Below, in pieces: positions 1,284 through 63,988 of a stretch of 64,000 nucleotides of DNA. The notes beneath the pieces were generated by a model, which was not told where the DNA came from, did no database searches, and saw only the letters and a program-made list of their open reading frames with translations. Source of the DNA: Lancefieldella rimae ATCC 49626. GTDB lineage: Bacteria > Actinomycetota > Coriobacteriia > Coriobacteriales > Atopobiaceae. The stretch lies in assembly GCF_000174015.1 (NCBI RefSeq), contig NZ_ACFE01000005.1:1-64000 (forward strand), written 5' to 3'. The stretch's first letter is position 1; each line of letters opens with the position of its first letter. The position numbers were made by a program, and so were the translations under genes.

Positions 1284-2939
1284 TTACTTCTTCTGTACGT
1301 ACTTCAAGGAATCGAGCGTGACCGCAGCAAGGATGATGACACCCGAGAATACAAACTGCAGGTTCGTATCAATACCCAAGATAGTAAGCGAATACGTCAG
1401 AGCGGTGAAGATGAGCACACCCGTTGTGACGCCCGAAATCTTACCGATACCGCCGGTAAATGAAACGCCACCGACTACGCAGGCCGCAATGGCATCCATA
1501 TCCCAACCCTGCCCGTATGCAGCGGAGCCGGAGCCGACCATACGCATGCACTCAAGCCAAGAACCAAAACCGTACAAAATACCGGCCATGACAAAAGCAC
1601 CAAGCATGACTTTGAACACATTGATACCGGAAACGGCCGCCGCTTCGGGGTTGCCACCGACGGCATAGAGGTTCTTACCAAAGGTGGTTTTGTTCCAAAT
1701 GAACCACACGAGCGCAATGGCGGCAACCGCCCACAAAATGATTGTCGGGAAACCGTTGACGCGAGGAATAACTGCAGTAGGGATGCTTGCTTCAATTGCG
1801 CCGAAAGAAACGCCTTTTGTGGCATAGGTCACAATGCCAAAGATGATGAGCATGTTTGCCATCGTCGAGATGAACGGATGAATCTTGAACTTTGCCGTAA
1901 AGAAACCGGCAATGGAGGTGAACACTGTACAGAGCAAAATACAGGTAAGCAATGCAAATATAATGCGCACGGGAATGGGAAGACCGGTAAAGTCAAAGAT
2001 GTGACCGAAGACGCCACCGGTATTGATACCTTGGTGCATGATGATGGTTGAAGCCGTCATGCCCATACCTACCATACGCCCGATGGACAGATCGGTACCA
2101 GTGAGCAAGATAAGACCGGCAACACCCAAAGCCAGAAACATGCGAGGAGACGCCTGCTGCAAAATATTAAGTACGTTGTTATAGGTTAAAAGCTGCGTAC
2201 CTTTTACGGCCGGAGTCACAACACACAAACCAATGAAGACCAGCAAAATGACAATATACAGACCGTTTTGCAGAAGGAATGAGCGCATATTAAAGGAATA
2301 CTTATAGTTCTCCCACTTCTGTTTCTGCGTCTCAAGAAGCGTAAACTTCGACATGCGCAACTGGTCAATCAAATGATACTCATAGCTAAACGCATCGTGG
2401 CTGCGATCCTTAATACGCTGGAGCTCTTTTTCGTAGGTCACCTTTGCGTCAAATTGACGATTCTTGTAGACGTACTTTTCGTCTTTTATTTCTTGGGAAT
2501 CAGTCAAGGCAGAGAGTGTCTGCGTATGCTCTGTTTCAAGCTGAGCCAAGCGCTTCTCGTACTCTTGCTTTGCTATGACCTTCTCCGCTTTGCAGCTTGC
2601 TTTAACGGGCTCCAAATAATCAGGCGAGAAGTGCTGCTTAAGGTAGCTTTCTGCATCGGCAATGAGTTTGGAAATCTCTTCCTTATGCGATGCTTCAACC
2701 GCCTTTGCCTTATCGAGAAGAGCCTTCTGCTCGGCAATTTGTGCGGAGCGCTCATCGGCAGTAATCGACTTGTCACGTTTTGCGGATTCAATGTTGCTCA
2801 TCGCAAGAACAACCTGGTCGGTGCCATCAAGACGAAGATCGTCAATCTTCTTTTGAATGGAGCCGATATACTCATCAATAGGCTTGCGCAGTTTCAACTC
2901 CTGCTCAGCCGTCAGGACCGTATCACCTGTGTTTGGCAT
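1284..2939 (-). CDS. mglC: MglC-type sugar ABC transporter permease with ~215-residue N-terminal coiled-coil extension
   Basis: Membrane component of a galactose/methyl-galactoside-type importer. The last ~330 residues (from about residue 225) form the hydrophobic permease, including GTDLSIGRMVGMGM and AVGGNPEAAAVSGI, typical of the RbsC/MglC family. Before this comes a charged, Lys/Glu/Gln-rich segment with heptad character (residues ~10-215, e.g. KKIDDLRLDG, EYEKRLAQLETEH). E. coli MglC, about 336 residues, lacks it. The segment precedes the first membrane helix and has no signal peptide, so it is probably cytosolic. I chose the ATG at 2939, nine bases after AAGGAAGG; an ATG at 2945 and a TTG at 2948 are alternatives. 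It is the last gene of mglBAC. Confidence 0.9.
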   Translation of the reverse strand: MPNTGDTVLTAEQELKLRKPIDEYIGSIQKKIDDLRLDGTDQVVLAMSNIESAKRDKSITADERSAQIAEQKALLDKAKAVEASHKEEISKLIADAESYLKQHFSPDYLEPVKASCKAEKVIAKQEYEKRLAQLETEHTQTLSALTDSQEIKDEKYVYKNRQFDAKVTYEKELQRIKDRSHDAFSYEYHLIDQLRMSKFTLLETQKQKWENYKYSFNMRSFLLQNGLYIVILLVFIGLCVVTPAVKGTQLLTYNNVLNILQQASPRMFLALGVAGLILLTGTDLSIGRMVGMGMTASTIIMHQGINTGGVFGHIFDFTGLPIPVRIIFALLTCILLCTVFTSIAGFFTAKFKIHPFISTMANMLIIFGIVTYATKGVSFGAIEASIPTAVIPRVNGFPTIILWAVAAIALVWFIWNKTTFGKNLYAVGGNPEAAAVSGINVFKVMLGAFVMAGILYGFGSWLECMRMVGSGSAAYGQGWDMDAIAACVVGGVSFTGGIGKISGVTTGVLIFTALTYSLTILGIDTNLQFVFSGVIILAAVTLDSLKYVQKK

Positions 2940-2956
2940 ATACATCAACCTTCCTT

Positions 2957-4465
2957 CTACAGGTACTTTGCGCTGAGGCGCAGGAGTTCTTCTTGATTCG
3001 TATCTTTGGTATCTACAATGCCGGAAAGTCGTCCTGCCGACATAACACCGATACGGTTGGTAATGCCTAAAATTTCAGGCATCTCGGAAGAGACAACGAT
3101 AATGGTTGTCCCCTTCTTAGCCATATCAATAATGAGCTCGTAGATTTCGTATTTTGCACCAACGTCGATGCCTCGAGTTGGCTCGTCCATCAAAAAAACC
3201 TTAGGATAGCGCTCAAGCCATTTGCCGAAAATAACTTTCTGCTGATTGCCGCCGGAGAGGCTTGAAATGAGATCGTCGGGTCCCATTGCTTTCGTGTTCA
3301 TGACCTTAAGTTCTTTAACGGTTGCCTTCGTCATCTTTGGATCGGAAAGAAGCGGTCCCGATTTGTACTGATTGAGATTGGCAATGGTCGTATTAAACGT
3401 CAGGTCGCCTTTCAAAAAGAGGCCATTTGCCTTACGTTCCTCGGTAATCATGGCAAAGCCGTGGTCCATGGCCTCAGTGGCACTTGAGAAGTTCATCAAG
3501 TGACCGTTGACATACACGCGGCCGGCAGCACGCGTACGAACGCCAAAGATAGTCTCCAGAAGTTCCGTACGCCCCGCGCCTACCAGACCATAGAGGCCAA
3601 AAATCTCACCTTTCTTAACTTCAAAAGTCACATCTTGCAGATATGGCGCATATTTTGTCGAAAGGTGCTGTACCGAGAGATACGTGTCTCCCGGATTGTT
3701 GTCAACTTCAGGAAAACGATTCTCAAGAGAACGACCAACCATGGCGGCGATAAGCTCGTTCATGTTGGTCTCGGCACACGGCTTTGTCATAACCAGCTTG
3801 CCGTCCCTCAAAACCGAAATGTCATCGCATATCTCAAAGATTTCATCCATCTTATGAGAGATATACACCAAAGAAATGCCCTGCTCTTTCAACATGCGAA
3901 TCATCGAAAAGAGCTTCTCGACCTCTTGCGCCATGAGTGAAGAAGTCGGCTCGTCAAGCACAATTATTTTTGCGTTATAGGAGATTGCCTTTGCAATCTC
4001 AACCATCTGGCGCTGAGAAACGGACATCTTTTTCATCGGTTGCGTCAGATTAACCGTCATCCCCAAACGACGAAACAGCTCGTTTGCCTCTTTTTTCATG
4101 CGACCTTCGTCAATGACGCCCATCGCATTAACCGGATAACGACCAAGAAAAAGATTGTCAATAACATTGCGCTCAAGGCACTGATTAAGCTCCTGGTGGA
4201 CCATGGCAACACCGTTTTCCAAGGCGTCTTTTGGTCCGGAGAAGCTTACTTCCCTACCATCGAGAAAAATCTGGCCCTCGTCTTTTTGATACGTGCCAAA
4301 CAGGCACTTCATCATGGTGGACTTGCCGGCACCGTTCTCTCCCATAAGACCCATAACGCTGCCCTTACGCACGTCAAGATCGATATGGTCAAGTACGCGG
4401 TTTCGCCCAAAGGACTTGCTCATCCCTTTGATCGAAAGAACAATGTCGTCTTGCAAATCGGCCAT
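2957..4465 (-). CDS. mglA: MglA-type sugar ABC transporter ATP-binding protein
   Basis: 502-residue tandem ATPase that powers the Mgl importer at the inner face of the membrane. The first cassette has Walker A GENGAGKST (residues 42-50) and the Walker B stretch IIVLDEPTSSL. The second has a degenerate P-loop, GLVGAGRTE, with signature LSGGNQQK and the Walker B stretch VFLMDEPTRGID, the usual pattern for RbsA/MglA proteins. The ATG at 4465 follows AAAGGGGTG; an in-frame upstream extension to 4507 lacks support. The gene lies 135 bp after mglB, with a hairpin between them, and 17 bp before mglC. Confidence 0.95.
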   Translation of the reverse strand: MADLQDDIVLSIKGMSKSFGRNRVLDHIDLDVRKGSVMGLMGENGAGKSTMMKCLFGTYQKDEGQIFLDGREVSFSGPKDALENGVAMVHQELNQCLERNVIDNLFLGRYPVNAMGVIDEGRMKKEANELFRRLGMTVNLTQPMKKMSVSQRQMVEIAKAISYNAKIIVLDEPTSSLMAQEVEKLFSMIRMLKEQGISLVYISHKMDEIFEICDDISVLRDGKLVMTKPCAETNMNELIAAMVGRSLENRFPEVDNNPGDTYLSVQHLSTKYAPYLQDVTFEVKKGEIFGLYGLVGAGRTELLETIFGVRTRAAGRVYVNGHLMNFSSATEAMDHGFAMITEERKANGLFLKGDLTFNTTIANLNQYKSGPLLSDPKMTKATVKELKVMNTKAMGPDDLISSLSGGNQQKVIFGKWLERYPKVFLMDEPTRGIDVGAKYEIYELIIDMAKKGTTIIVVSSEMPEILGITNRIGVMSAGRLSGIVDTKDTNQEELLRLSAKYL

Positions 4466-4496
4466 TTTATCACCCCTTTGTTTCTCCGTGCTCGTT

Positions 4497-4577
4497 CTTC
4501 TCGCCACATGCTTCTTACCTGCAAGAAGCTCGGCTGTCGAGAAACAAGGAGGAGAGGAGTAACTCCCCTCCTCCCGT
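4497..4577 (-). other. mglB-mglA intercistronic hairpin and DUS-like site
   Basis: Between mglB and mglA the minus-strand transcript can form a long GC-rich stem (left arm about 4546-4559, right arm 4562-4576; GGAGGAG opposite CTCCTCC) followed by TTGTTT. Such hairpins after binding-protein genes often protect the upstream message or attenuate the downstream genes, which fits the need for more binding protein than ATPase; that role is inferred. A copy of the GGCGAGAAGNNC motif (minus strand, octamer 4497-4504) lies between the hairpin and the mglA ribosome site. Confidence 0.55.
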
Positions 4578-6540: not shown

Positions 6541-7908
6541 CTATTCTTCCATATAATCTTTCAGGCGAGAAGAACGCGACGGATGGCGAAGCTTTGCCAA
6601 CGTCTTTGACTCAATCTGACGAATACGCTCACGCGTTACGCCAAACTCGCGACCAACCTCTTCAAGCGTGCGGGGACGACCGTCCTCAAGGCCAAAGCGG
6701 AACTTGATAACTTTACGTTCACGATCCGCAAGACCATCAAGTACCTGCTCCAATTGCTCACGAAGCATGGAATCAGATGCTGCGTCCGGAGGTGCAATCG
6801 CCGTTGAATCCTCAATGAAATCGCCAAGCTGAGAATCTTCCTCTTCACCGATAGGCGTTTCAAGCGAAACCGGTTCTTGGGAAATCTTCTGAATTTCACG
6901 TACGCGATCAGGAGACATCCCCATCTCGGCACCAATCTCTTCCGGCGTGGGATCGCGGCCAAGATCTTGCAGAAGCTGGCGCTGTACGCGGATAAGCTTG
7001 TTGATGGTCTCAACCATATGCACGGGAATACGAATCGTACGTGCCTGATCGGCAATCGCACGTGTAATGGCCTGACGGATCCACCACGTTGCGTACGTGG
7101 AAAACTTAAATCCCTTGGTATAGTCGAACTTCTCGACTGCTCGAATAAGGCCCAGATTACCTTCTTGAATAAGATCCAAAAACAGCATGCCACGGCCAAC
7201 ATATCGTTTGGCAATGGAAACAACAAGTCTCAGATTAGCACTGATAAGCTGCTGTTTTGCATCAAGACCAACCTGCTCAATACGCATCAGACGACGCTGC
7301 TCTGCTCTTGAAAGCTCAATTTTCTCGTCTTCAAAGTCTTCAAGCTTCTGCGTTGCCTCGGTACCGGCTTCAATTTTCATTGCAAGATTGACCTCTTCCG
7401 ATGCGGTGAGAAGGTCAACTTTGCCGATCTCCTTGAGGTACATGCGTACCGGATCTCCCGTAAGCATAACGGTAGAGGTATCGGCTCGACGGGCACGAGC
7501 GCGAGAAGAGCGCTTGGGTTTGGAAGTTTTTGCTTTAGGAACCGACCTCAACGCCTCTTTAACCTGCCGCGCCTCATTGAGCACGCCGGCATCTTCATCG
7601 TCTTCGTCCTCATCGTCGAGAGGAGCATCGTCAAAATCATCGTCAGCGCTCACGAAATCATCATCAGAGACCGTATCGGAAAACTCTACCGATCCGTCGG
7701 ATACGGAAGTGATTTCAACGTTTTTGCTACGAAGCGTCTCATAAAGAAGAGAAAGTTCGCTGTCAGAGACATCAACTTCCTGCAGAGCAATCTGAATATC
7801 ATCTTCTGATATTGAGCCCGATCCTTTTGCGGAAATAACCAATTCATCTGCAACTTTGGCAAGCTCATCGGGAAGTTTAACACTCTCTTTTGTCTTCTTT
7901 GCAGCCAC
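6541..7908 (-). CDS. sigA: Primary RNA polymerase sigma factor (sigma-70, RpoD/SigA)
   Basis: 455-residue housekeeping sigma factor. It has a long acidic N-terminal region with a [11 protein letters not shown] run and a basic stretch, then region 1.2 ([17 protein letters not shown]). Regions 2.3-2.4 include [20 protein letters not shown], region 3 follows, and region 4.2 contains [17 protein letters not shown]. It ends in the usual LKDYMEE. I chose the GTG at 7908 because GAAAGGAT precedes it by 7 bases; longer in-frame starts upstream lack family support. The gene follows dnaG by 126 bp and has its own likely promoter. Two copies of the GCGAGAAG motif lie in the gene, one at its extreme 3' end. 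Confidence 0.97.
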
Positions 7909-8034: not shown

Positions 8035-9921
8035 CTACTGGCTCGTTGATAAGCGCGAGCCAATCTCATTCATGCGAACCTGCATCCGGGAAATCTCTTC
8101 AAGAAATTCCTGAGATTTATTGGTTGGGCTCTCGCGCATCTTCAGACGAAGCGCCCGTATTTGTCGTTTAAGGGAGAAGAACTCAAGCGTATCGACGATT
8201 AAATTGAGCTTTTCCTGCTCGTTCATACCTTCTGCGGAAAACACCTTTCCGGCAGAAAGCACCTGCAGCGCATGTGGCTCAACCACCTCAGCTGCCGCAA
8301 TCACATCATGTGAAGACGTACCTTGCGGTGTTGCAAGCATGGCCCATGCCATGGACTCATGACGACTATCAACCCACGAAAGAGCGGCAATGCGCTGTCC
8401 ATACGCCCGCACCGCATCAATGCGTGATGCCATGGCAGATAGGAGCTCTCGTTCCGACTGTAACTGCGTGCGGTCGTCATGCGAAAGTGCCCGCAGATCA
8501 TACGTAGAGGCCATAGAGCGAGAAGTATTGTCTGCGTGTGAGGCAATATCCACGCGAGAAGTGCCTCTTGTATTTGTGCGCTCCTCTGGAGGTATCGGCT
8601 GAGTATTTTGGTAGCGCGGCTCTGAAATCTCTTTTATGGGCGTGGCCGTGATAGTACGTTTTGCCTCGGCAACATTAACTCCCAATGTATCTGCCAAGCG
8701 CAAGGCATACTCATCAAGAAGCACTGAATTTTTAAGCGGAGCCAAGATTTCTGCCAACGCATGCAGTGCGGCAACACGATTCCCCGGAATAGAAAGATCA
8801 AATTCACCCAGTTTGCTCTCAAATACGAAATCCATCAAAGGACGCGCACGGGCAAGATATGGTTTAAGGGCATCCGCGCCATGTGCCGCAAGAAACTCCA
8901 TCGGGTCTTGATTGTCCGGTAACACGACACACAAAAAAGCAGCGGCGGTCTTATCGATAAACTGCACAGAACGAGCAGCAGCTCTCTGACCTGCCGCATC
9001 GCCGTCAAACATACAGATAATCTTTTTGACCCGCTGCCGTTCAAGCAATTTTACGTGATCAAGTCTAAAGGCCGTACCCAACGCCGCAACGGTATTGGTA
9101 AACCCAGCCTCATGCATGGCAATGACGTCGGTATAGCCCTCGCACACAATGGCGACGCCGGTGGCGGCAATGGTTTCTTTGGCTCGGTCGTATGCAAAAA
9201 GGTGCTTTCCTTTATTAAAAACCACCGTATCTCGTGTATTGAGGTATTTGGGGGCATTTTCCGCCTTAGTAAGAATACGTCCGCCAAAAGCGATTGTCCG
9301 GCCCCGCTCGTCATGAATGGGAAACATGACGCGCCCATAAAACCAATCCGAGGTACGCCCTCCTCTATCAACGGCAAGGTTGGCGGCAATCATTTCCTTA
9401 TTGGTAAAGCCCAATTCTCGCAAGTGCGCGACAAGCGTTCCTCTTCCCGGCGCATATCCAAGATTCCACCGCTTGCAAACGTCTCCGCCAAAACCACGCC
9501 CGGCAAGATAGCTGCGCGCGGCGGCAAAGTCCTCCCCTTTACCCCGCATAAGCATGAGGTGGAAGAAATCATCGGCCGCAGCCAGACAGTCAAAAAGCCG
9601 CTTCTTTCGAGGACCTTTCGTATACTGTTTCTCCTCCGAAAGCGTAATGCCGGCTCTGTCCGCTAAATATCGGATGGCATCGGGAAATTCAAGGTTTTCT
9701 CGCTTCTGGACATAGCTGAAGACATCGCCGCCGTCGGAGCAGCCAAAACAATGCCAGAGGCCCGTTTGGGGGTTTACCTTAAACGACGGGCTCTTCTCAC
9801 CATGAAAAGGACAGCAGCCCCAAAACTCGTTGCCTCGTTGTCGAAGATCAACGGTCTCACCAACAAGCTGCACAAAGTCAGTTGCTTGACGAACTCTCTC
9901 TTTATCCTCATCAGTTATCAC
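8035..9921 (-). CDS. dnaG: DNA primase
   Basis: 628-residue primase that lays down RNA primers at the replication fork. The N-terminal zinc finger is CCPFHGEKSPSFKVNPQTGLWHC-like (Cys/His ligands CPFH and CFGC). The TOPRIM core contains VCEGYTDVIAMHEAGF and MFDGDAAGQ. The C-terminal helicase-binding region is divergent. The GTG at 9921 follows GGAGG with 6-base spacing and overlaps the ribF stop by 11 bp, so translation is probably coupled. The pairing with sigA recalls the macromolecular-synthesis operon. Confidence 0.95.
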   Translation of the reverse strand: MITDEDKERVRQATDFVQLVGETVDLRQRGNEFWGCCPFHGEKSPSFKVNPQTGLWHCFGCSDGGDVFSYVQKRENLEFPDAIRYLADRAGITLSEEKQYTKGPRKKRLFDCLAAADDFFHLMLMRGKGEDFAAARSYLAGRGFGGDVCKRWNLGYAPGRGTLVAHLRELGFTNKEMIAANLAVDRGGRTSDWFYGRVMFPIHDERGRTIAFGGRILTKAENAPKYLNTRDTVVFNKGKHLFAYDRAKETIAATGVAIVCEGYTDVIAMHEAGFTNTVAALGTAFRLDHVKLLERQRVKKIICMFDGDAAGQRAAARSVQFIDKTAAAFLCVVLPDNQDPMEFLAAHGADALKPYLARARPLMDFVFESKLGEFDLSIPGNRVAALHALAEILAPLKNSVLLDEYALRLADTLGVNVAEAKRTITATPIKEISEPRYQNTQPIPPEERTNTRGTSRVDIASHADNTSRSMASTYDLRALSHDDRTQLQSERELLSAMASRIDAVRAYGQRIAALSWVDSRHESMAWAMLATPQGTSSHDVIAAAEVVEPHALQVLSAGKVFSAEGMNEQEKLNLIVDTLEFFSLKRQIRALRLKMRESPTNKSQEFLEEISRMQVRMNEIGSRLSTSQ

Positions 9922-10954: not shown

Positions 10955-11934
10955 GCTATAACCCCACTGATTCCCTGGGGAAAATTTGCTTTGCAAATCA
11001 ACTCGGATCCTTGGCAGTACCACACCCCAAAAAGGCGACGGTCATGCACGATTGCAACTTTTTCCTGCTGCAATGGCATACGGCGAGAAGTACCTTTGTC
11101 CGTCTCTTCTACCTCACCTGCCGCGATATGTCTTCCGACCAACACGTCCGTAAGTTCTTGTGAGCTTACCTGCCGAATGGGAAGTTCCAGAGCGCGTACC
11201 GGGTCAAGGCAGCACTCGTTCCAGAGAGTTCCACCGCGCTCCTCAAACAAAGCAAGCTCCACGCAGTCGGCTAAGCTGATTGTTCCGGAAACCACTCGTC
11301 TCAACGCGGAGATATGCGCACCACAGCCCAGCTCTCTACCCAAATCTCGCGCGATACTTCTGATGTAGGTGCCCTTTGATACGCAAAAATCAACAACCCA
11401 CAGACATGTATTGGGCACAAGAGAATCGGCTTGAGAATCTCTCTCAATGGATACAAGCTGTGCCTGGTGAATGGTGATGTGACGTGCCGCAAGCTCAGGT
11501 GCCTTACCTTCTCTGGCCAATGCATACGCACGTTTTCCCTCAACGGATACGGCAGAGAACTGAGGAGGTATTTGCTCATGCTCTCCTACGAGCTTTTCCA
11601 AAACACGTTTCGCGTAAGCACTGTCAAATAACTCCGAAGGAACGGGTGCTGTTCTCACAACTGCCCCTTCGGAATCATCGGTCTGTGTTTCAGCTCCAAA
11701 CGAAATGGTTGCCCGGTAGCACTTCTCGGCAAGGGTAAGCATGCCTAAAAGCCTGGTTGCAAGCCCGACACCCACTATCAAAACGCCACTCGCAAGCGGA
11801 TCGAGCGTACCCGCGTGTCCGACGCGCTTCTCATGTAAAGCTCGCCGAACATGCGAAACAACATCATGACTTGTCATTCCAACCGGCTTGTCAATGGCGA
11901 GAAGGGCATTGATGGTGCTTGCCGTACGTTTCAT
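10951..11934 (-). CDS. truB: tRNA pseudouridine-55 synthase
   Basis: 327 residues. TruB converts U55 of the tRNA T-loop to pseudouridine. It shows the catalytic motif GHAGTLDPLASGVL with the active Asp, an N-terminal LLAIDKPVGMTSHDVV, and SKGTYIRSIARDLG. It lies between the nrnA-like gene and ribF in the ribosome-maturation run and overlaps ribF by ATGA. Confidence 0.96.
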   Translation of the reverse strand: MKRTASTINALLAIDKPVGMTSHDVVSHVRRALHEKRVGHAGTLDPLASGVLIVGVGLATRLLGMLTLAEKCYRATISFGAETQTDDSEGAVVRTAPVPSELFDSAYAKRVLEKLVGEHEQIPPQFSAVSVEGKRAYALAREGKAPELAARHITIHQAQLVSIERDSQADSLVPNTCLWVVDFCVSKGTYIRSIARDLGRELGCGAHISALRRVVSGTISLADCVELALFEERGGTLWNECCLDPVRALELPIRQVSSQELTDVLVGRHIAAGEVEETDKGTSRRMPLQQEKVAIVHDRRLFGVWYCQGSELICKANFPQGISGVIA

Positions 11935-28130: not shown

Positions 28131-28150
28131 GGCGAGAAGATCTTCTCGCC
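28131..28150. repeat. Perfect 20-bp palindrome made of two DUS-like motifs
   Basis: GGCGAGAAGATCTTCTCGCC is its own reverse complement and joins two opposed copies of the GGCGAGAAGNNC motif. It sits in the T-box leader between stem I and the antiterminator, where the RNA would form a stem-loop, taking the place of a linker stem. Confidence 0.9.
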
Positions 28151-33879: not shown

Positions 33880-34027
33880 GAAATAATCTCCCGTAAACCC
33901 AAAGCAAGCCATCCGGCACTGCCAAAACCACTTCTACGGGTCTCTATACTATCGCGTTCTCGTGCAAAGTGTAGCGAGAAAATCAATTGCACATAACGTT
34001 AAAACGCTCAGGCGAGAAGAACTCGTG

Positions 34028-39160: not shown

Positions 39161-39243
39161 GTCTATCTCTTTCTTCTTGTATGTCGCGAGAAGTGCTTGG
39201 ATTATCTCTCCAAAACACGGGCGATCGGGTATATGCATGGTGC

Positions 39244-43859: not shown

Positions 43860-43928
43860 ATAACATCCCTTCTCGAGAATGATTAAAACCGCCGTTATAA
43901 AACACTGTGGCGAGAAGCACTTCTTACG

Positions 43929-47910: not shown

Positions 47911-50559
47911 CTATATTCCGAGCTTTTGTTTTGCCGCCTCAAGCGCCACATCAATACCCGAGATATCAACGCCGCCGGCCTGAGCCATGTTTGGCCGACC
48001 GCCGCCGCGACCTCCCACCAAGCCGGCAATATCTTTGATAAGAGTGCCGGCGCTAAAGCCTGCGGCTACTGCCGTATCCGTTGCCCCCGCGAGAAGAGCG
48101 ACTTTTTTATCGGGCGTTACGGATGCGATAACGCACGCCACGGGATGGCCGTCTGAGGCATCTCGTATTCCGTCCCAAACAGAACGCAGATCTTTGCCGG
48201 AAAGATCGTCAAGCCTTGTAATGACGCAGCGATAACCATCAAGCTCATGGGCATTATGCAGCGCTTCCGCTATCCGGTTTGAACCGGCGCCAACCGTTGC
48301 CGCCTCTGCTTTTTTATGTGCCTCACGAAGATCGCTCTGCAGCTGTTCAACGCGGGCAGCCACCGCTTCGGGGCGAACCTTTAAGCCGTGTGCAACCATA
48401 TCAAGCTGGACAAGACGCTCGTCTACATAGCTGATAGCGCCCATTGAAGTCACCGCCTCGATACGACGGGAGTTCGCACCAACGGAGCTCTCAGATACGA
48501 TCTTAAAAAGACCAAGCTCAGCAGTGTTTTTCGCATGGGTTCCACCACAAAGTTCCCGAGAAAACGGATGGTCTTCCTCTCCCACCGAAACAACGCGGAC
48601 CACATCACCGTACTTCTCGCCAAAAAGCGCCACCGCACCTGCGGCTTTGGCTTCATCGATGTTCATGATCTGAGTAACAATGGGTTTGGCGGCAAAAATC
48701 TCGGCATTAATCATTCCCTCAATGCGGGCAAGCTCGTCTGAAGTAAGCGCTTCAAAATGCGTGAAATCGAACCGCAAACGATCAGGGGCAACAAGCGATC
48801 CCGCCTGATTCACATGGGAACCAAGTATCAGTTTGAGAGCCGCATCAAGAAGGTGCGTTGCGGTATGGTTGCGACGGATAAGCTCGCGGCGGCCGGTATC
48901 AATCACGGCTATCAGGACATCACCTGTATGAAGCTCTCCCTCTTCTACCTGCCCCACATGCGCAATGAGGTTGCCTTCCTTGTGCTTTGTATCGCTCACT
49001 TGAACAAAAAGATTATCCGCCGAAAGCGTACCGGTATCCCCTACCTGACCGCCCATCTCCGCATAGAATGGCGTACGGTCAAGCACTACCTCAACCTCAT
49101 CGCCTACGGCCGCGCAATCAACTTCTTGCCCGCCTTTTACCAAAGCGACAACCCTACAGCCTTCCAGTTCATTGTGGTTATAACCGTCAAAGACCGTTTC
49201 ATCAAGGCGATCGGAAAGCGCCACCCACACGGACTGCGCTTTGCCCCACGCATCGCGATTGGCACTTGCACGCGCGCGCTGCTTCTGCTCTGCCATTGCA
49301 GCATCAAACTGCGCCTCATTAACGGCGTGTCCCGCACGGGCCGCAATCTCGCGCGTAAGGTCAATGGGAAAACCGTAGGTGTCATGAAGCAGGAAGGCCA
49401 CATCTCCGGAAAGGCACTCATCTCCGGTAAGCTTTTTCAGCTCATCTTCCAGTTTGGATTCACCGGCTTCAAGGGTTGTGCCAAACCGCTCTTCTTCTGC
49501 CGTCAAAATGCCTTCAATAAGTACGCGTTTCTCAACAAGCTCAGAATACGCATCTCCAAGCAGGCGCACGACCTCATTTGCATATTCAGCCATAAATGTT
49601 TTTTGGATGCCCACAAGACGGCCATGATACACCGCATGGCGCAGGAGCCGTCGTAAGATATAGCTACGACCTTCGTTTCCGGGCAGAATTCCGTCGCCAA
49701 TCATAAATGACACCGCACGGCTGTGGTCGGCCAAAATACGGAGACTGCGATCAACCTCTTCGTTTCCGGCTTGATAACGCTTACCCGAAAGCTTCTCACC
49801 AAGCTCAATAAGAGACGTCATAATGTCGCCCTCATAGTTGGAGCCCGCATGCTGCATGATGGCGGCAATACGCTCAAGGCCCATGCCGGTATCAATGTTG
49901 CGGTGCGGGAGCTCCGGCATAGAGCCGTCTTCTTGACGATCGTATTGCGTAAAGACGAGATTCCAAAACTCAAGGTAGCGGTCTCCGTCATCGCCGGGCT
50001 TCTCGCCGGAAAACTCAGGACCTTGATCGAAGTAAATCTCAGAACAAGGGCCACACGGACCCGTTGGACCGGCTGCCCAGAAGTTGTCCTCCTCGCCCAA
50101 ACGAGAAATATGATCTTCGGCAACACCTAACGAGTGCCAAATCTCGGCAGCCTCATCATCATCGGTAAATACCGTAAAATACAGACGATCAAGCGGCAGA
50201 CCAAGATGCTCTGGACTTGAAATGAACTCCATGGCCCATGTACACGCATCTCGTTTGGTATAACCTCCAAACGAGAAATTGCCCAGCATTTCAAAGAAGG
50301 ACAGGTGACGATTATCGCCGATGTTGTCGATATCATTGGTGCGCAAACACTTCTGACATGAAGTGGCACCGATCTCCTTCATCGTTTTAATGCCCTGATA
50401 GTATTCTTTGAACTGATTCATTCCCGCATTGGCGAGAAGAAGCGACGGATCTGAGGGTACCAGCGACGATGAGGGATATACCTTGCATCCCTTTGACTCA
50501 AAGAAGGCAAGGAAATTCTTGCGAATCTCAGCTGTGGTCATGGTCTTGTAATTAGACAT
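47911..50559 (-). CDS. alaS: Alanyl-tRNA synthetase
   Basis: 882-residue class II synthetase. The catalytic core opens with TTAEIRKNFLAFFESKGCKVYPSSSLVP, followed by motif 2 and GRSYILRRLLRHAV. The editing domain has HTATHLLDAALKLILG and FSRELCGGTHAKNTAELG (zinc-binding Cys and His). The DHHA1-like C-terminal domain ends VGGRGGGRPNMAQAGG. It carries three DUS-like copies on the two strands. No T-box is upstream; the AI-2E-family gene lies 16 bp away. Confidence 0.98.
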   Translation of the reverse strand: MSNYKTMTTAEIRKNFLAFFESKGCKVYPSSSLVPSDPSLLLANAGMNQFKEYYQGIKTMKEIGATSCQKCLRTNDIDNIGDNRHLSFFEMLGNFSFGGYTKRDACTWAMEFISSPEHLGLPLDRLYFTVFTDDDEAAEIWHSLGVAEDHISRLGEEDNFWAAGPTGPCGPCSEIYFDQGPEFSGEKPGDDGDRYLEFWNLVFTQYDRQEDGSMPELPHRNIDTGMGLERIAAIMQHAGSNYEGDIMTSLIELGEKLSGKRYQAGNEEVDRSLRILADHSRAVSFMIGDGILPGNEGRSYILRRLLRHAVYHGRLVGIQKTFMAEYANEVVRLLGDAYSELVEKRVLIEGILTAEEERFGTTLEAGESKLEDELKKLTGDECLSGDVAFLLHDTYGFPIDLTREIAARAGHAVNEAQFDAAMAEQKQRARASANRDAWGKAQSVWVALSDRLDETVFDGYNHNELEGCRVVALVKGGQEVDCAAVGDEVEVVLDRTPFYAEMGGQVGDTGTLSADNLFVQVSDTKHKEGNLIAHVGQVEEGELHTGDVLIAVIDTGRRELIRRNHTATHLLDAALKLILGSHVNQAGSLVAPDRLRFDFTHFEALTSDELARIEGMINAEIFAAKPIVTQIMNIDEAKAAGAVALFGEKYGDVVRVVSVGEEDHPFSRELCGGTHAKNTAELGLFKIVSESSVGANSRRIEAVTSMGAISYVDERLVQLDMVAHGLKVRPEAVAARVEQLQSDLREAHKKAEAATVGAGSNRIAEALHNAHELDGYRCVITRLDDLSGKDLRSVWDGIRDASDGHPVACVIASVTPDKKVALLAGATDTAVAAGFSAGTLIKDIAGLVGGRGGGRPNMAQAGGVDISGIDVALEAAKQKLGI

Positions 50560-50575: not shown

Positions 50576-51988
50576 CTATTTCTCTTTCGGCAAAGACGAC
50601 TTGTTTTCGGCTTCTGAGTCTACCGTACTCGACACTTGTTGGTCGCCTATATTTTCAGGAGTTGAAAATTTTGAAAAAACTTTTGCAATATCTTCGGCGA
50701 TATTGATTGTTTTTTCCGGCTTTTCATCCGCTTCAACACAAACCGCCTCGCTCTTGTCGACCAAGCGCGTGGACTCAAAGAACGAATCGTCATCCAAAGC
50801 ATCAAACGCAGGATGAATATTGCCGTCTGCGTCATGAAACGGCGTACTGTTAAAAAGCGCTCCATCATAGGAGACAATCTGTCTGCCGGTATGCGCCTCG
50901 AAGTAATATACAAAAACTCCTCGAAGAGCTGCGGTGATAGGAATGGCTAAAATTGTTCCCACAATGCCCCCGAGGGCACCGCCAATCATAATGCCTACGA
51001 GAGAAAGCCCCGGGTGCACCTTAACACTTGAGGCCATGACCACAGGAGACAGGACATTGTCGGTTACGTTTTGAGCAACGACAAGAACTAAAAGCGTCCA
51101 AAGCCCGAGCATTGGACTTTGTAATACCGAAAGAATCAACGCAATACCGGCAGAAAAAACAGGGCCAACAACCGGTATGATATGCAAAACACCCACAATG
51201 GTACCGATAAGCCCCGCATAGGGGTTTTGAATACACAAACAACCGACATAGGCAAGTACGCCGTTTGCTATAGACGTCACAATGGTGCTGCGCATATATC
51301 CGCCAACGGAACGGCTTAAAATGGCAAGAAGCAACCTCACTTCATCGTCTCGTTGAGGACCCGCAATGACGGCAAGCTCTCTTACCATAACGGGATAATC
51401 CTTGGCAAGCCAATACGCGAGTACCAGTCCCAAAAAGAAACTCATGAAGTGCTCGCCTAGCGTGGAAATATTGCTCAGGGCATTTGCGGAAAGCCACCGA
51501 AACGCTTCCCCCGCAAACGAAACACCAAGATTGGATGCCTGCAGAATAATTGAATTGACGGTACTGCGAACAGCCGAATTTCCTATGGCGTCATAGGTTA
51601 TCCACGCTTCTTGCACCATATCTTGAATCTGCCTTGCATACAGAGGGGCGTTTCTCAGCAAGATGAGCGATTCGTCTATCAACGGCTGCGCAATTAACGC
51701 AATAAAGCCTACAAGAATAAGCAGCACAACGATAAGCGCAATGAGTGCCGAAAGAGCACGCGGCACCTTCCACGTCTCAAGCTTATTGGTAAGAGGCGCA
51801 CATATAAATGCAACGATTCCACCAATGGCGAGAAGCTCTACCGCTTGACTCACGCTTCCAAGCGCCATAATTACCACAACAAACACACCGGCCATACCGA
51901 GCAAAGCCCACGCAACAATACCACGGCGTCGCCATGCCGATTCATTTACCAAAGGAACGCTGGTAAAGCGCTTGTTTTTACCTTGCAC
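50576..51988 (-). CDS. AI-2E family (PerM/YtqI-type) transporter
   Basis: 470 residues, about eight hydrophobic helices, with the family stretch GVLHIIPVVGPVFSAGIALILSVLQ and VVMASSVKVHPGLSLVGIMIGG. The soluble C-terminal ~100 residues are acidic. Some members export autoinducer-2, others act as Na+(Li+)/H+ antiporters; the substrate here is unknown. It lies 17 bp after the sigma factor gene. Confidence 0.88.
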   Translation of the reverse strand: MQGKNKRFTSVPLVNESAWRRRGIVAWALLGMAGVFVVVIMALGSVSQAVELLAIGGIVAFICAPLTNKLETWKVPRALSALIALIVVLLILVGFIALIAQPLIDESLILLRNAPLYARQIQDMVQEAWITYDAIGNSAVRSTVNSIILQASNLGVSFAGEAFRWLSANALSNISTLGEHFMSFFLGLVLAYWLAKDYPVMVRELAVIAGPQRDDEVRLLLAILSRSVGGYMRSTIVTSIANGVLAYVGCLCIQNPYAGLIGTIVGVLHIIPVVGPVFSAGIALILSVLQSPMLGLWTLLVLVVAQNVTDNVLSPVVMASSVKVHPGLSLVGIMIGGALGGIVGTILAIPITAALRGVFVYYFEAHTGRQIVSYDGALFNSTPFHDADGNIHPAFDALDDDSFFESTRLVDKSEAVCVEADEKPEKTINIAEDIAKVFSKFSTPENIGDQQVSSTVDSEAENKSSLPKEK

Positions 51989-52836: not shown

Positions 52837-53215
52837 AAGGTCCGCCTGTCACCTTAAGAAGGTGGAGTGTATAGCCTTCATCGTCAAGAGAAAAATCGTC
52901 ACAAATTGCCGAAAGAAGTAACTCGACAAGCTCCAAAGGCTGACCCTCAGCCACATCTCCACAATCCTCGGGATCCTTCTCGCCAAGGCTAAAGTCCATG
53001 GCTATGGAGCCATCTTGGAGAGTAAATATAACTTCAACGTTTTCTGGCTGCGTGCCACAGGCATACACAAACCCTTCCTCAGCAGCCATGCGGATATCTT
53101 CAAGCTCATCGACGTTCATACCCACAAGAACCGCTAAATTTGCGGCAGTCATACGAACCGAGCGAGCAAAGGTACCATCAGCTGGAACCGTAAGGGTTAC
53201 GACCTTTTGATTCAT
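52826..53215 (-). CDS. RsbW-like anti-sigma factor with degraded ATP site
   Basis: 129 residues in the HATPase_c_2 family by context and layout (MNQKVVTLTVPADGTFARSVRMTAANLAVLVG; IRMAAEEGFVYACG). The N-box expected as SExxTNAV reads EEGFVYAC, with Tyr51 where the Mg-binding Asn should be. No DxGxGF G1-box is seen; the matching stretch reads MDFSLGEKDPED. It probably binds the adjacent sigma factor but may lack kinase activity. No RsbV-type antagonist gene is nearby. ATG 53215 is chosen; GTG 53224 is possible. Confidence 0.72.
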   Translation of the reverse strand: MNQKVVTLTVPADGTFARSVRMTAANLAVLVGMNVDELEDIRMAAEEGFVYACGTQPENVEVIFTLQDGSIAMDFSLGEKDPEDCGDVAEGQPLELVELLLSAICDDFSLDDEGYTLHLLKVTGGPYAG

Positions 53216-53948: not shown

Positions 53949-55346
53949 CTACTTTGACCCTTTGGGCTTGGATTTTTTGTTTGTTTGTGAAGATGTTGTT
54001 TCCCCTCTGTCGCGGGCAATGGCCTCAAGCCTCCACGCCTCCCAACCTCGATCAGACGGCGAGAAGAACGCGCCACGGGAAAGACCTTTGGGCAAGTAGC
54101 GCTGCTCGACCCATCCTCCTGGGTAATTGTGGGGGTACAGATAAGCTCCATACTCATCCGAACCGGGCCTGTGACGATCTCGCAAATACGGAGGAACCTC
54201 ACGGCGAGGACCTTTTCGCACTTCTGCCAAAGCAGCATCAATGCCTGCTTCAGCGGCATTTGATTTGGGAGCCAGTGCCATATAGAGTACCGCCTGAGCA
54301 AGATTGATGCGGCACTCCGGATATCCGATGACTTCTGCCGACCGAAACGCCGCCTCGGCAATAAGCAAGGCCTCCGGATCGGCGTTACCGATATCTTCGG
54401 ATGCCAAAATCATAATACGGCGAGCAATAAACTTAGGATCTTCTCCGGCATCAATCATACGCGCAAGCCAATAAAGAGCAGCGTCAGGATCGGATCCTCT
54501 CATGGACTTGATAAAAGCAGAGATAACGTCATAGTGCATATCACCCGCCTTATCATAAGGCAGGCCGCGGCGAGGATTTGCCTCCAAAACATGCTGCAAC
54601 GTAATAACAATGGGTTCTTTTTGACCCACATCCTTTTGGTCTGCATCTTTTGTCTCGGTATTTTCAGCCGGAGACGCCATCTGGCTTGCAAGCTCAAGAG
54701 ACGTGAGGGCCGCTCTTGCATCGCCGCCCGCAAGGGTAACAATCTCTTGCAGAGCATCGGGGTTAAGCGTATACGCGCCCGCAAGACCATCAGAACTTTC
54801 ACATGCACGCTCAATCAGATGAGAAATGGCTTCATCATCAAGCGGATAGAGCTCCACGACGCGAGAGCGTGAAATCAGTGCGCTATTGACCTCAAAATAC
54901 GGATTTTCCGTAGTGGCACCGATAAGCACTACCGTACGATCTTCCACTGCATGGAGCAGAGCATCTTGCTGAGAGCGATTAAATCGATGGATCTCGTCAA
55001 TAAATAGAATCGTACGCGTTCCTGCGGTAAGAAGACGAGACTCGGCAGCTTCTATTTCACGACGCAAGTCTTTTACCGTACCCGTAATTGCCGAAACCTC
55101 AACAAACGCCGCATGGGTGCTGTTTGCAATAATATGCGCGAGCGTTGTCTTTCCGGTACCCGCAGGCCCATAGAGCAACACAGAAGAAAGGGTATCGTGC
55201 TCAATGGCGCGACGCAGCCATGAACCCTCGCCCACCGCCTGCGTCTGTCCCACATACCCCTCAAGTGTCTGGGGCCTCATGCGGGCGGCAAGGGGCGCAT
55301 TTGCGTGCTTGGCAGCACGATGTATGCCTGAAAACAATGTATCCAT
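53949..55346 (-). CDS. rarA: Replication-associated recombination protein RarA (MgsA)
   Basis: 465-residue AAA+ ATPase acting at stalled forks. Walker A GPAGTGKTTLAHIIA, Walker B LFIDEIHRFNRSQQD, sensor 1 GATTENPYFEVN, and the family C-terminus with RGSDPDAALYWLARMIDAGEDP and APKSNAAEAGIDAAL. Full length. One DUS-like copy lies antisense near its 3' end (54058-54066). Confidence 0.95.
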   Translation of the reverse strand: MDTLFSGIHRAAKHANAPLAARMRPQTLEGYVGQTQAVGEGSWLRRAIEHDTLSSVLLYGPAGTGKTTLAHIIANSTHAAFVEVSAITGTVKDLRREIEAAESRLLTAGTRTILFIDEIHRFNRSQQDALLHAVEDRTVVLIGATTENPYFEVNSALISRSRVVELYPLDDEAISHLIERACESSDGLAGAYTLNPDALQEIVTLAGGDARAALTSLELASQMASPAENTETKDADQKDVGQKEPIVITLQHVLEANPRRGLPYDKAGDMHYDVISAFIKSMRGSDPDAALYWLARMIDAGEDPKFIARRIMILASEDIGNADPEALLIAEAAFRSAEVIGYPECRINLAQAVLYMALAPKSNAAEAGIDAALAEVRKGPRREVPPYLRDRHRPGSDEYGAYLYPHNYPGGWVEQRYLPKGLSRGAFFSPSDRGWEAWRLEAIARDRGETTSSQTNKKSKPKGSK

Positions 55347-56684: not shown

Positions 56685-57824
56685 TTAAAACCGCTCGAAA
56701 GTCTTGGAAACTTCTTTGAGAGCATCTGCAAGACGAGATGCTATCTGAGTGGCTCCGTGTACATTGGGATGGTCATCGTCCGCAAAGAGTTTGGGGTTTG
56801 CGTCAATCAGATCCGCTCCACGAATGACTTCAATATGCTCGGATCTCGCCGATTCAAAAATAAAATCCTCTACGTCAGAAAAACAAGAAAGAGGATGCGT
56901 GGGATACCGTGTTTCAAAGTGAGGAAATGGTGTTATTGCAATGATTCGGGAGTTTTTATATTCTTGTGCAACTTCATGCAATGTCCGCCTGATATCCTGC
57001 TTTACCTGCCCTTTATTGGTTTTTTCAAAACGATAATTTGAACCCAAGGCTACAATTACAAGCTCTATATCCCAAGCCACATTTGGCTTCTCAATCACTT
57101 CTGCCTGAAAGATTTGTCCGCCAATGCTTTGATTACACAGACTGAGTTTGAGTTTATGCGCAAGCTGTGCGGGCCACGTCCGAGTCGGGCTTCCCGCCAC
57201 AAAACCTTGGGCGATAGAATCTCCTATGACTACCAGTCCTTTTTGTGCCTCTACTGGCGAGAAGAACGATCCGTCTCCAAAAAGGGTTCGGACCAAAACA
57301 CCTGTCAGACAAGGAAACCATATCCGTACCTGATGAACCTCACCAAACCCCGGAAGCCGCGGCGTCCCTTTTGTATCTTCTTGGTCCTCTACGCTAAAAC
57401 GCAAAACATCGGGCTCTCCAAAAGAGAGTCGTGAGGTCTTGTTCTCATTGTCTATCGAAATAGGTACCAGGACCGTTTGCTTCTTATCGACACTAACGGC
57501 CAAGGAATCCTGTATGCCTGAAGGTACCTGACGCAGTACCGCTTGGGTGCCTTGCGGCGGTTTTTCTACCAAGAGCTCAAGCGCAATATGTTGAGAGTCG
57601 GTTGTAAAAGAAAGCAAAACACCGGACGTGCATCGCGCCATTTGGCGATAGAGTCCGGGATGCCAAGCCAGACAACTGCCAAGAGCGCGCATTTGACTTT
57701 TGGAAAATCGCTCGGGGTGAACCCAGCCATCCGCAAGCTCTTCACAGCACAAAGCACCCTGTAAAAAGCGGGCAGCAGGACAAGCAAGTGAATACCCTGA
57801 TATGTCCTGCCGCAGTTTTGACAT
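56685..57824 (-). CDS. SGNH/GDSL-family hydrolase
   Basis: 379 residues. An N-terminal ~190-residue domain of mostly beta character, without a signal peptide, precedes an SGNH hydrolase domain. That domain has block I VVIGDSIAQGF (Ser), block III-like VALGSNYRF (Asn) and block V DDDHPNVHGATQIA (Asp, His). Related proteins deacetylate carbohydrates or esters. ATG 57824 follows AAGGAAG. It lies 30 bp after the KdgT-type permease, hinting at a shared carbohydrate role. Confidence 0.8.
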   Translation of the reverse strand: MSKLRQDISGYSLACPAARFLQGALCCEELADGWVHPERFSKSQMRALGSCLAWHPGLYRQMARCTSGVLLSFTTDSQHIALELLVEKPPQGTQAVLRQVPSGIQDSLAVSVDKKQTVLVPISIDNENKTSRLSFGEPDVLRFSVEDQEDTKGTPRLPGFGEVHQVRIWFPCLTGVLVRTLFGDGSFFSPVEAQKGLVVIGDSIAQGFVAGSPTRTWPAQLAHKLKLSLCNQSIGGQIFQAEVIEKPNVAWDIELVIVALGSNYRFEKTNKGQVKQDIRRTLHEVAQEYKNSRIIAITPFPHFETRYPTHPLSCFSDVEDFIFESARSEHIEVIRGADLIDANPKLFADDDHPNVHGATQIASRLADALKEVSKTFERF

Positions 57825-57854: not shown

Positions 57855-58907
57855 CTACTTCCGTATTGGCGGCTCCTTCGAAGAAGGCACTGTTGCAGCA
57901 TTCTCTTCTTGGACACCGTCACTACTAAGCGTATCGTGACAGAATTTTTTATCAACCCATCCGGTAATGATCGGTGCAAAAAACGCCGTAATGACCACTG
58001 CCGCCGCAATTTGAGCCGTAGCAACGGGGGCGATGGCAGTATAGGACGCGTCGGCTTCCACAAAAGCTTTTGGCGTTGTAGCAGCGGTTCCTGCGACCGT
58101 ACCGGAAGCGACGCCGGCTTTGCCCGATCCTCCGCACAGTTTCTCAAAAAGTGAAGTCAAAATACCAATGACAATGCAGAGCACCGCGAGAAGTACCCCG
58201 GAAAGACCGCCTTGAATAAGCTGCTCAAGGCTCATGCCACAGCCAAGAGAAAAGCCCACGACCGCAATGCAGGGGTTAATGCCGGGAACCAACAGGTTTT
58301 TCAAAAACGGACTTGCGTTTCCCATGATGATGCCCAATACCAAAGGCAGCAGCGTTCCCACGTATACCAAAGGTTTGATGTCGGCAAGGCCGGAAACTCC
58401 AAGGGCAAGCATGGTGATGGTCGGGCCTGCGGTAAGGGCGAGAAGCGCCGTTGCTCCCTGCTCTCCTGAGTCGCCGTATTCTGTCATGATGCCGGAATAA
58501 AGAGCAACATTGCAAAATGCAATACCGCCAATAATGGACAGTGCGGAAAGGCCAAAGAAATTGTTTCCGCAGAAAGCGGCTACACCAAGACCAAGGGCAA
58601 TGGAGAGAGCCAACTTTGGCACAAGAACCACAACACCCGTCTTCAAGGCTTCGGGAACTGCACGTAAATTAATACTTGCACCCATAAAGATCAAAAGCAG
58701 GCCGACAATGGTAGAAGAGCCTTTGACAACCGCCGTTGTAAAGCTTCCAACGGCAAGCACCTGTGGACAAAAAGAGTTTAGAAGCAGACCGACAAGAAGC
58801 GGATAGAGCATGATGTCTCCTGGGATACGCGGAACCTTGAATCCCTTTTTTTCCTGCTTCGCCGTTGAGGCCACTTCTCTGTTCTGCCTTTTAGTAGAAT
58901 CTGCCAT
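57855..58907 (-). CDS. 2-keto-3-deoxygluconate permease family (KdgT-like)
   Basis: 350 residues, ten or so hydrophobic segments, with VPRIPGDIMLYPLLVGLLLNS at the start and GTVAGTAATTPKAFVEADASYT near the C-terminus, as in KdgT symporters. It would import ketodeoxygluconate with H+. No kduD/kdgK/kdgA-type catabolic gene is in the window, so the real substrate is uncertain. ATG 58907 is 10 bases after GGGAGG; ATG 58916 is too near. Confidence 0.83.
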   Translation of the reverse strand: MADSTKRQNREVASTAKQEKKGFKVPRIPGDIMLYPLLVGLLLNSFCPQVLAVGSFTTAVVKGSSTIVGLLLIFMGASINLRAVPEALKTGVVVLVPKLALSIALGLGVAAFCGNNFFGLSALSIIGGIAFCNVALYSGIMTEYGDSGEQGATALLALTAGPTITMLALGVSGLADIKPLVYVGTLLPLVLGIIMGNASPFLKNLLVPGINPCIAVVGFSLGCGMSLEQLIQGGLSGVLLAVLCIVIGILTSLFEKLCGGSGKAGVASGTVAGTAATTPKAFVEADASYTAIAPVATAQIAAAVVITAFFAPIITGWVDKKFCHDTLSSDGVQEENAATVPSSKEPPIRK

Positions 58908-62277: not shown

Positions 62278-62311
62278 GGTGTATGTCATCGTCTTAAATC
62301 GCATGAGAATA

Positions 62312-62339: not shown

Positions 62340-62378
62340 CCACATCATAAAATCGATAATCATTTGGAAACAATTATG

Positions 62379-62903
62379 CTATCTGAATGCCTCTGCCGTT
62401 TTCCGTACAACGGTAAACGCCGAAATTAAATCGTCCAGAGTCATGCGAGCATTCGCGGGGCTTGTTGACGGCAATGACGTAGCGGCAAGGTGAGTTGTCG
62501 GTTCAATATGGCGATGGTAAAGCCGTGTAGCCATGCCTCCAAGCGTATATATCTGCACAATGTTTGCCTGCTCAAGCAAACTCGCAATGTCATTGGGAAC
62601 CGGATTTTCAATGCTCGCATCACTGGCGCCTATAATGTCACACGCCTTCAAAACATCACAGATGGCCACATGGTGTAGGTGGCAGAAGCGTATCTTTTCT
62701 TCACTGCTTTCCAAGGGCTTCTCGCCCCAAAGACCGGCCATAACACGCCAAAAACGATTCTGTGGATTACCAAAGTAAAAGCCAATTTCCCGAGATTTAG
62801 GACTTGGCATCGAACCCAATAACAGAACGCGAGAATCCCTATCTACAATGGGAGGCAAGGGATTTACGATATGCTCGCGCCCGGATTGTGGGAGCTTTCC
62901 CAT
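62379..62903 (-). CDS. UDG-superfamily DNA-deoxyinosine glycosylase (Mug-like)
   Basis: 174 residues. Active-site region VLLLGSMPSPKSREIGFYFGNPQNRFWRVMAG and C-terminal ATSLPSTSPANARM match the hypoxanthine-DNA glycosylase branch of the uracil-DNA glycosylase superfamily, which removes deaminated bases. ATG 62903 follows GGGAG and lies 4 bp after the phosphatase gene. Confidence 0.87.
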   Translation of the reverse strand: MGKLPQSGREHIVNPLPPIVDRDSRVLLLGSMPSPKSREIGFYFGNPQNRFWRVMAGLWGEKPLESSEEKIRFCHLHHVAICDVLKACDIIGASDASIENPVPNDIASLLEQANIVQIYTLGGMATRLYHRHIEPTTHLAATSLPSTSPANARMTLDDLISAFTVVRKTAEAFR

Positions 62904-62907
62904 GTAT

Positions 62908-63711: not shown

Positions 63712-63718
63712 AAAACTC

Positions 63719-63988
63719 CTAACGATTATGCGATCCCAAACAGTCTTCCACAGACGGCTTGCCGTCAAAATTAAGACCATGCGTCAATTTTCTTGCAGCT
63801 TCCAAATTAAAATCATGCGAGAAGAACATGTCAAGTGCATAGGGAACATTGGCAAGTGCGGCATCATAGAGATCCCAGAAACTTTCATGGCGTTTCGTAC
63901 CTGTTGCAGGATCAATCCACGCATGGCCTTCATGGTTGTCAAAGTCAGAATCAGCCGAAGCCCGTAGCCGATGCGAGATTGCTTCCAT
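63719..63988 (-). CDS. Hypothetical protein, possibly 5'-incomplete
   Basis: 89 residues from an ATG at 63988, but the frame stays open to the window edge, so this may be the C-terminal part of a longer protein. It is rich in Asp, His and Phe (SDFDNHEGHAWIDPATG; ALDMFFSHDFNLEAARKL). I recognise no domain with confidence. It lies 7 bp before the phosphatase gene, so probably the same transcript. One DUS-like copy (63817-63824) lies antisense in it. Confidence 0.5.
   Translation of the reverse strand: MEAISHRLRASADSDFDNHEGHAWIDPATGTKRHESFWDLYDAALANVPYALDMFFSHDFNLEAARKLTHGLNFDGKPSVEDCLGSHNR

Follow-up and report, generated by a model that had tools for sequence, protein, structure and literature searches.

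A 64,000-nucleotide stretch from Lancefieldella rimae ATCC 49626 (the window: positions 1 to 64,000 of contig C5 in the source genome G000, which has 1,626,291 bases in nine contigs) contains numerous dispersed copies of a gapped 12-base motif, GGCGAGAAGNNC, with the core CGAGAAGNNC. Judged from its sequence pattern, the motif is probably a DNA uptake sequence (DUS) of a natural-transformation system in one branch of the Atopobiaceae (Coriobacteriales, Actinomycetota). Its number, sharpness, spread over both strands, occurrence in close pairs, depletion in a prophage, clade-limited abundance and apparent dialect jointly fit an uptake sequence best; it is independent of codon use and of replication direction, and the genome carries com and tad genes.

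Form and abundance of the motif

In the window, the octamer GCGAGAAG has 36 exact copies on the two strands, against a mean of 2.71 and a maximum of 7 in 100 dinucleotide shuffles, and the 12-mer has 19 copies against a mean of 0.18 in such shuffles. A preceding G is found in 21 of the 36 octamers and a C at the third base downstream in 32, while the shorter word CGAGAAG occurs 70 times and is followed by the downstream C in 60 of these. Under a first-order model, GCGAGAAG is the most over-represented 8-mer of the window and GGCGAGAAG the most over-represented 9-mer.

Detailed statistics were obtained from 1.197 Mb of the approximately 1.63 Mb of the source genome, where the 12-mer has 330 exact copies versus 3.1 expected under a second-order model. 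Each one-base variant at position 1 or 2 is common, with 56 to 153 copies, and variants at positions 3-8 and 12 are scarce (0 to 44 copies for any one of them); position 9 was found as A in 63 variants, T in 19 and C in 8, and positions 10-11 are free. Some one-base variants are still above expectation, such as T at position 6 (44 vs 2.2). Over the same 1.197 Mb, the core CGAGAAGNNC was counted 1,064 times, at a mean distance of 1,099 bases or about one per 1.1 kb, with a spacing close to random and slight over-dispersion across 20-kb blocks (P 0.015), and is present on all contigs sampled. Copies of the 12-mer in the whole genome total 430 (212 on the forward strand and 218 on the reverse), and the reversed pattern, a control word that takes no account of codon use, has 9 (8 + 1). 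The original prediction, which counted 35 octamers in the window (21 with the preceding G and 31 with the downstream C), was accurate to within one on each count; the conserved unit does exceed the octamer and skip two free bases, first-base variants mostly keep the downstream C, and genome-wide counts do not fall to background level. A dispersed repeat or transposon, such as a repetitive extragenic palindrome (REP) or a miniature inverted-repeat transposable element (MITE), was rejected because the flanks are unconserved: outside the 12-mer, no position within 25 bases on either side exceeds 0.24 bit.

Relatives, acquired DNA and paired copies

The survey covered 272 genomes of the Coriobacteriales with a completeness of 90% or more, and those with at least 200 copies of the 12-mer were tallied as motif-rich (family f1 was taken as Atopobiaceae and f10 as Coriobacteriaceae, on the basis of named records whose counts equal those of rows in these families and of the family labels on the ComEC tree). 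The expected enrichment in related Atopobiaceae was found: 52 genomes are rich, mostly from this family, and the highest count outside the 52 is 179. All five genomes of the window's own genus are rich (215-430 copies), as are 25/25 of genus g4 (287-1,393 copies) and 8/8 of g29 (399-521 copies). Identical counts place Thermophilibacter provencensis and Olsenella sp. An270 in g4, and g29 includes Olsenella sp. KH3B4; further genera with at least 200 copies are g30 (3/3), g16 (2/2), g26 (2/2), g6 (1/1), g12 (1/1) and g32 (1/2). Genus g53 (G132-G135), placed in the Coriobacteriaceae, is rich in 4/4 genomes (389-753 copies), and the other listed genomes of that family have at most 99; in g53 the motif may have been gained a second time or passed from one family to another. 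Low counts were recorded in Collinsella (38-58), Enorma (81), Atopobium fossor (43) and Slackia (30), several times the reversed controls. Within one family, abundance differs more than tenfold among genera, and the motif occurs in genomes of 44 to 68% G+C. The two strands are near-balanced in rich genomes, the most uneven being G032 (190:245), as counted by contig and not by replication direction. Among 396 genomes drawn across the phylum, none from outside the order stands out: counts peak at 180-193, and the genomes concerned measure about 10 Mb and have controls of 60-90. In a tree of ComEC proteins with 33 rows, which leaves out g53 and the motif-rich G009, the 10 rows with at least 250 copies need 2 changes, compared with a mean of 8.7 for shuffled labels (0/500 as low), and nine of these ten group together (94/91 support) with G029 apart.

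A second form was recognized in the sister genus g23. In 118 kb of G026, a g23 genome with 40 copies of the first form, GCCGAGAA, TGCCGAGA and CCGAGAAA rank 1, 2 and 5 among octamers, and TGCCGAGAANNNC was found in 38 exact copies with few one-base variants except at bases 1, 2 and 7. Whole-genome counts of TGCCGAGAANNNC in the two g23 species are 676 in G026 (321:355; reversed control 9) and 673 in G066 (334:339; reversed control 6), where the first form has 40 and 26 copies. Both forms have CGAGAA and a C at equal distance, and the left half differs in the sister genus; by analogy with the neisserial dialects, TGCCGAGAANNNC is best read as a dialect. Mixed genomes also exist, with first-form and TGCCGAGAANNNC copies of 161 and 281 in G014 (where TGCCGAGAANNNC is uneven by contig strand, 107:174), 399-521 and 229-296 in g29, and 430 and 158 in the source genome, and both forms are infrequent in Olsenella uli (G027; 95 and 35). 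A dialect was also sought in G031, G012 and G030, and none was clear; the word obtained from G030 is a local repeat. That genome has clustered repeats around CAGATGCACG, many of them spaced 73 or 146 bases (L043:15426-16094 and L216:777-2968).

In the source genome, a region of about 32 kb that reads as a prophage (C7:117899-149835) has 6 cores against 29.3 expected, with a P of 2e-7 that is flattering because the region was chosen for being cold; C7:117.9-149.8 kb takes in several motif-free stretches, among them the longest one. Shorter words and one control word are also scarcer there, to a lesser degree (GAGAAG 41 vs 60, CGAGAA 32 vs 58, GCGAGA 26 vs 40). This single region supports scarcity of the motif in newly acquired DNA. 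Its genes, named by reading the open frames only, include an integrase, a repressor, a terminase, a portal and a tail-like protein. Conservation was assessed against 400 kb of the sister species G004, of which 318 kb were aligned at 77.8% identity: all fixed bases are kept in 163/321 cores versus 105/653 letter-shuffled words, and at conserved Glu-Lys pairs the spelling GAG-AAG is kept in 87/108 cases inside the motif versus 41/70 outside (P 0.002).

Pairs of cores within 20 bases in the source genome comprise 20 convergent, 1 divergent and 1 same-strand pairs, so that the head-to-head arrangement of uptake sequences is seen in this genome; complementary pairs of uptake sequences serve in terminators in Neisseria and Pasteurellaceae, according to the part of PMC1852404 available, and a terminator role here is putative. 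Of the 29 convergent pairs within 40 bases, 17 lie between open frames, and 13 of these 17 are within 75 bases of a 3' end, a figure that carries no control for closeness; 2/17 are between divergent frames. The intergenic pair at C9:484937 has a long stem and a T run, and 12 of the 29 are perfect overlapping palindromes, CGAGAAGNNCTTCTCG. A palindromic dimer site was considered and rejected, as pressure acting independently on each strand would, by a rough estimate, yield about as many palindromes, and the majority of copies are non-palindromic.

Within the window, exact matches to the full 12-mer on the forward strand are located at 2623-2634, 6564-6575, 11082-11093, 11896-11907, 28131-28142, 34011-34022, 43909-43920, 51827-51838, 54058-54069, 57256-57267 and 58437-58448, and on the reverse strand at 4494-4505, 24587-24598, 28139-28150, 29086-29097, 37723-37734, 48610-48621, 49996-50007 and 62715-62726. 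Those at 34011 and 43909 lie between open frames, and those at 28131 and 28139 form the left and right arms of a perfect overlapping palindrome (28131-28150), the right arm standing between divergent open frames. Exact octamers that have the downstream C and a first base other than G were found at 7501-7508, 8554-8561, 21681-21688, 23636-23643, 39186-39193, 48089-48096, 58186-58193 and 63817-63824 on the forward strand and at 19579-19586 and 36130-36137 on the reverse strand. The downstream C is also present in the forward octamer at 44753-44760, which forms one side of an overlapping palindrome (cores 44754-44769) within an open frame, and in two octamers between open frames, 47568-47575 (reverse) and 47792-47799 (forward). 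It is absent from the octamers at 8518-8525 (forward) and 31291-31298 (reverse), and from two that have the preceding G, 50432-50439 (forward) and 52976-52983 (reverse).

Two other kinds of repeat were noted. The words TACCGATA, found 12 times in the window (0.8 expected), and ATCGGTAA, found 17 times (1.4 expected), exceed expectation on both strands, at sites including 1441, 12449, 18963, 32592, 43370, 54385 and 63687, and are also present on the five large contigs sampled. Arrays of ACCACTAAAC/GTTTAGTGGT (58 exact copies in all within the sample, on C6, C7 and C9, none on C5) are located at C6:12431-12562, C6:178117-178354, C7:229290-229503, C9:500028-500158 and elsewhere; they have nested inverted repeats and resemble a non-coding mobile repeat.

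Codon use, replication direction and other explanations

A by-product of codon use would follow Glu-Lys and Leu-Leu pairs, and of the 952 coding copies 427 do fall on xEK and 290 on LL. Coding tests used 1,045 open frames on the five large contigs; genes were called by a simple longest-open-reading-frame rule, which makes 'gene', 'coding' and 'intergenic' approximate in all results. Shuffling of synonymous codons within genes yields 111 cores and not the 952 observed, which refutes codon use as the cause, and the excess extends to each of the six frames, 6- to 23-fold (observed vs shuffled, 290 vs 49, 52 vs 3.6, 97 vs 4.2, 62 vs 7.1, 24 vs 1.5 and 427 vs 46), with the four frames other than xEK and LL 9- to 23-fold over. 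Glu-Lys is written GAG-AAG in 427/522 cases inside the C...NNC context versus 345/1,020 elsewhere. Copies are also present between genes, with 112 of 1,060 cores (10.6%) on the 9.2% of bases of the five large contigs that are intergenic, so that genes are not avoided. There is next to no chance that codon use accounts for the motif. The original prediction had argued that codon use does not explain the motif and that copies occur in several frames and in gaps between genes, which these counts bear out; Glu-Lys pairs do not explain the enrichment. Sense cores number 510 versus 436 antisense, the antisense cores leaning to gene 3' ends (66/436 in the last tenth) and the sense cores showing no such lean, and intergenic core density is 0.74 per kb in divergent gaps versus 1.12 in tandem and 1.16 in convergent gaps.

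A Chi-type signal would be read by AddAB, which degrades broken DNA until the motif is met and then loads RecA. The source genome has an AddA (UvrD helicase and PDDEXK_1 nuclease by Pfam) next to an AddB-like protein assigned from position and reading only, and the motif is over-represented and scarce in the prophage. Known Chi words are short, unlike this gapped 12-base site with its dialects. According to the available part of PMC8022716, Chi is likewise rarer in acquired genes and lies almost exclusively on the leading strand in E. coli, polarisation being used there as a criterion, although unpolarised candidates are listed too. With leading and lagging strands assigned by GC skew, resolved in most 20-kb blocks, the cores divide into 555 on the G-rich (leading) strand and 505 on the other (P 0.13; 552:500 in a second count), and the small excess accompanies gene orientation, 75% of coding sequence being on the leading strand and sense copies being slightly commoner. 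No significant replication bias was thus found in the strand comparison, and a strand-polarised signal was rejected. The leading-strand polarisation expected of Chi was not seen in these counts or in 400 kb of the sister species G004 (193:158), nor was the strong bias to the terminus expected of KOPS (FtsK-orienting polar sequences) seen in the source genome. In contrast, AGGGGAG is over-represented and splits 118:5 in favor of the leading strand (C5-C9, 1.17 Mb), and CAGGGGAG splits 45:1, the figures in the sister species being 54:3 and 12:0; that the motif is unpolarised while AGGGGAG is so strongly polarised counts against both Chi and KOPS, AGGGGAG being the better candidate for a polarised signal. 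We therefore consider a Chi-type role unlikely. In its own right, AGGGGAG/CAGGGGAG is a candidate KOPS or Chi of the lineage.

The binding site of a nucleoid or chromosome-organising protein would agree with the presence of the motif on all sampled contigs, its near-random spacing at one per 1.1 kb and its depletion in the prophage. Such a site is nevertheless quite unlikely, in that the motif is not palindromic and does not avoid genes, and its more than tenfold range among genera of one family and its changed left half are unlike the expectation for conserved proteins. Still less probable is a highly iterated motif that has no dedicated reader and is maintained by mutation or repair bias, in the manner of highly iterated palindrome 1 (HIP1) of cyanobacteria. 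We know of no reader of HIP1, and none was identified here for the present motif either; HIP1, however, is palindromic, whereas the present word is asymmetric, has a free two-base gap and occurs across the above range of G+C content.

Competence genes and comparison with known uptake systems

The com genes that the original prediction proposed to look for were identified, and the pilus proved to be of the Tad/Flp type and not of type IVa. In the source genome, comEA (SLBB and helix-hairpin-helix domains) is directly upstream of comEC (Competence and Lactamase_B), and dprA is present. The Tad locus encodes a SAF-domain CpaB-like protein, a TadZ-like protein (assigned by reading), TadA (T2SSE), TadB and TadC (T2SSF each), TadE and a Flp-like pilin of 65 residues whose Flp1_like match is under the Pfam cut-off. 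The TadB/TadC pair accounts for the only two T2SSF matches in this genome, so no PilC-type protein or ComGB was found among them. Among motif-rich relatives, T2SSF matches number two each in G015, G019, G032 and G033, 4 in G007 and 6 in G029, and in 60 relatives comEC was found in 57, dprA in 58, HHH_3 (ComEA-type and others) in 57 and T2SSF in 57. The genes do not by themselves show that the source organism is competent. Basic surface proteins considered as receptor candidates were the Flp-like pilin, one TadE and one unassigned Tad-locus protein (pI, isoelectric point, 8.9 to 9.5), with nothing decisive among them.

Several results weigh against an uptake sequence. The machinery is near-universal, motif-poor genomes included, so that its genes do not predict where the motif occurs, as a receptor would; G031, with 8 copies, has comEC, an adjoining ComEA-type gene, dprA and the tad T2SSF pair. 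Comparison of 21 Tad loci by crude open reading frames gave four small families restricted to motif-rich genomes, each in 3-4 of 11 and none a clear receptor; one of them is the Flp-like pilin, a gene so small that it may have been overlooked in the other genomes. Abundance is graded and not all-or-none, many 'poor' genomes being several-fold over the reversed control. The control word GAAGAGC is itself reduced in the prophage (7 vs 12 expected). In the comparison with G004, conservation of Leu-Leu codons in the motif was not significant (47/82 vs 14/33, P 0.16) and that of the final C was not above control (76/103 vs 49/70, P 0.61). G004 shows little excess of convergent pairs (6 convergent, 0 divergent, 2 same-strand), and none was seen in 100 kb of the dialect genome G026 (1:1). 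As AddAB is present, a Chi-type signal could exist. In the literature covered, mostly open-access and exclusive of preprints, no uptake or transformation test was found for these genera, nor any uptake sequence for Actinomycetota, Coriobacteriia or Olsenella, nor any paper that spells out the motif as a whole word, so an earlier report is possible.

An uptake sequence nevertheless remains the probable explanation, and the uptake- or exchange-promoting role first proposed for the motif is supported, as far as sequence comparison can show, by its abundance, strand distribution, occurrence in relatives, com and pilus genes and independence of codon use. A surface DNA-binding component, which might be a Tad/Flp minor pilin, ComEA or another protein, would recognise the tag while the DNA is still double-stranded and bind it; one strand would be drawn in by the Tad pilus together with ComEA/ComEC, and DprA and RecA would recombine it. 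Tagged DNA would be taken up more often, and the tag would spread through the genome on both strands by biased uptake and recombination, settling wherever the protein sequence tolerates it and staying rare in newly arrived DNA. For the wider proposal, that a self-recognising uptake system evolved independently in Actinomycetota, employs a Tad/Flp pilus instead of type IVa and has at least two dialects that partly separate exchange between genera, we regard the chances as evenly balanced. Sequence-specific uptake has been described in species of two families, Pasteurellaceae and Neisseriaceae, according to the portion of PMC5031613 available. If the proposal is true, a further origin in another phylum and with other machinery would allow the reason for which bacteria tag their own DNA, molecular drive or mate choice, to be tested independently, a sequence-specific DNA receptor would be expected in a Tad/Flp system, and natural competence would be predicted in common mouth and gut anaerobes, together with a testable rule for the DNA they accept.

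Unlike the Neisseriaceae, the hosts of the present motif have no outer membrane. The motif is unrelated in sequence to the neisserial DUS, has a two-base gap and belongs to another phylum, in whose representative studied here no PilC-type (type IVa) protein was found; its uptake role and its receptor are putative, whereas ComP is the receptor of the DUS. The closest parallel for the machinery is Micrococcus luteus, also of the Actinomycetota, which has tad, comEA and comEC and no comG cluster (available text of PMC4322843 and PMC6370729) and whose natural transformation needs the tad genes (PMC4322843, in part); it differs in that no uptake sequence is mentioned in the available text of these two sources. 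The uptake signal sequence (USS) of Pasteurellaceae differs from the motif in sequence, phylum and pilus type, and resembles it in a core of more than a thousand copies with complementary pairs, which for the USS lie in terminators (PMC1852404, in part), and in a receptor that is only predicted in the part of PMC12616744 available. With the DUS of Neisseriaceae, the motif shares a length of 10-12 bases, hundreds to more than a thousand copies, a chromosome-wide distribution and close complementary pairs (parts of PMC5031613 and PMC1852404); one DUS orientation is commoner in genes (PMC2346458, in part), as set beside the 510 sense and 436 antisense cores, and dialects are distributed among relatives in that family (PMC3630211, in part), as appears to be the case for the present motif.

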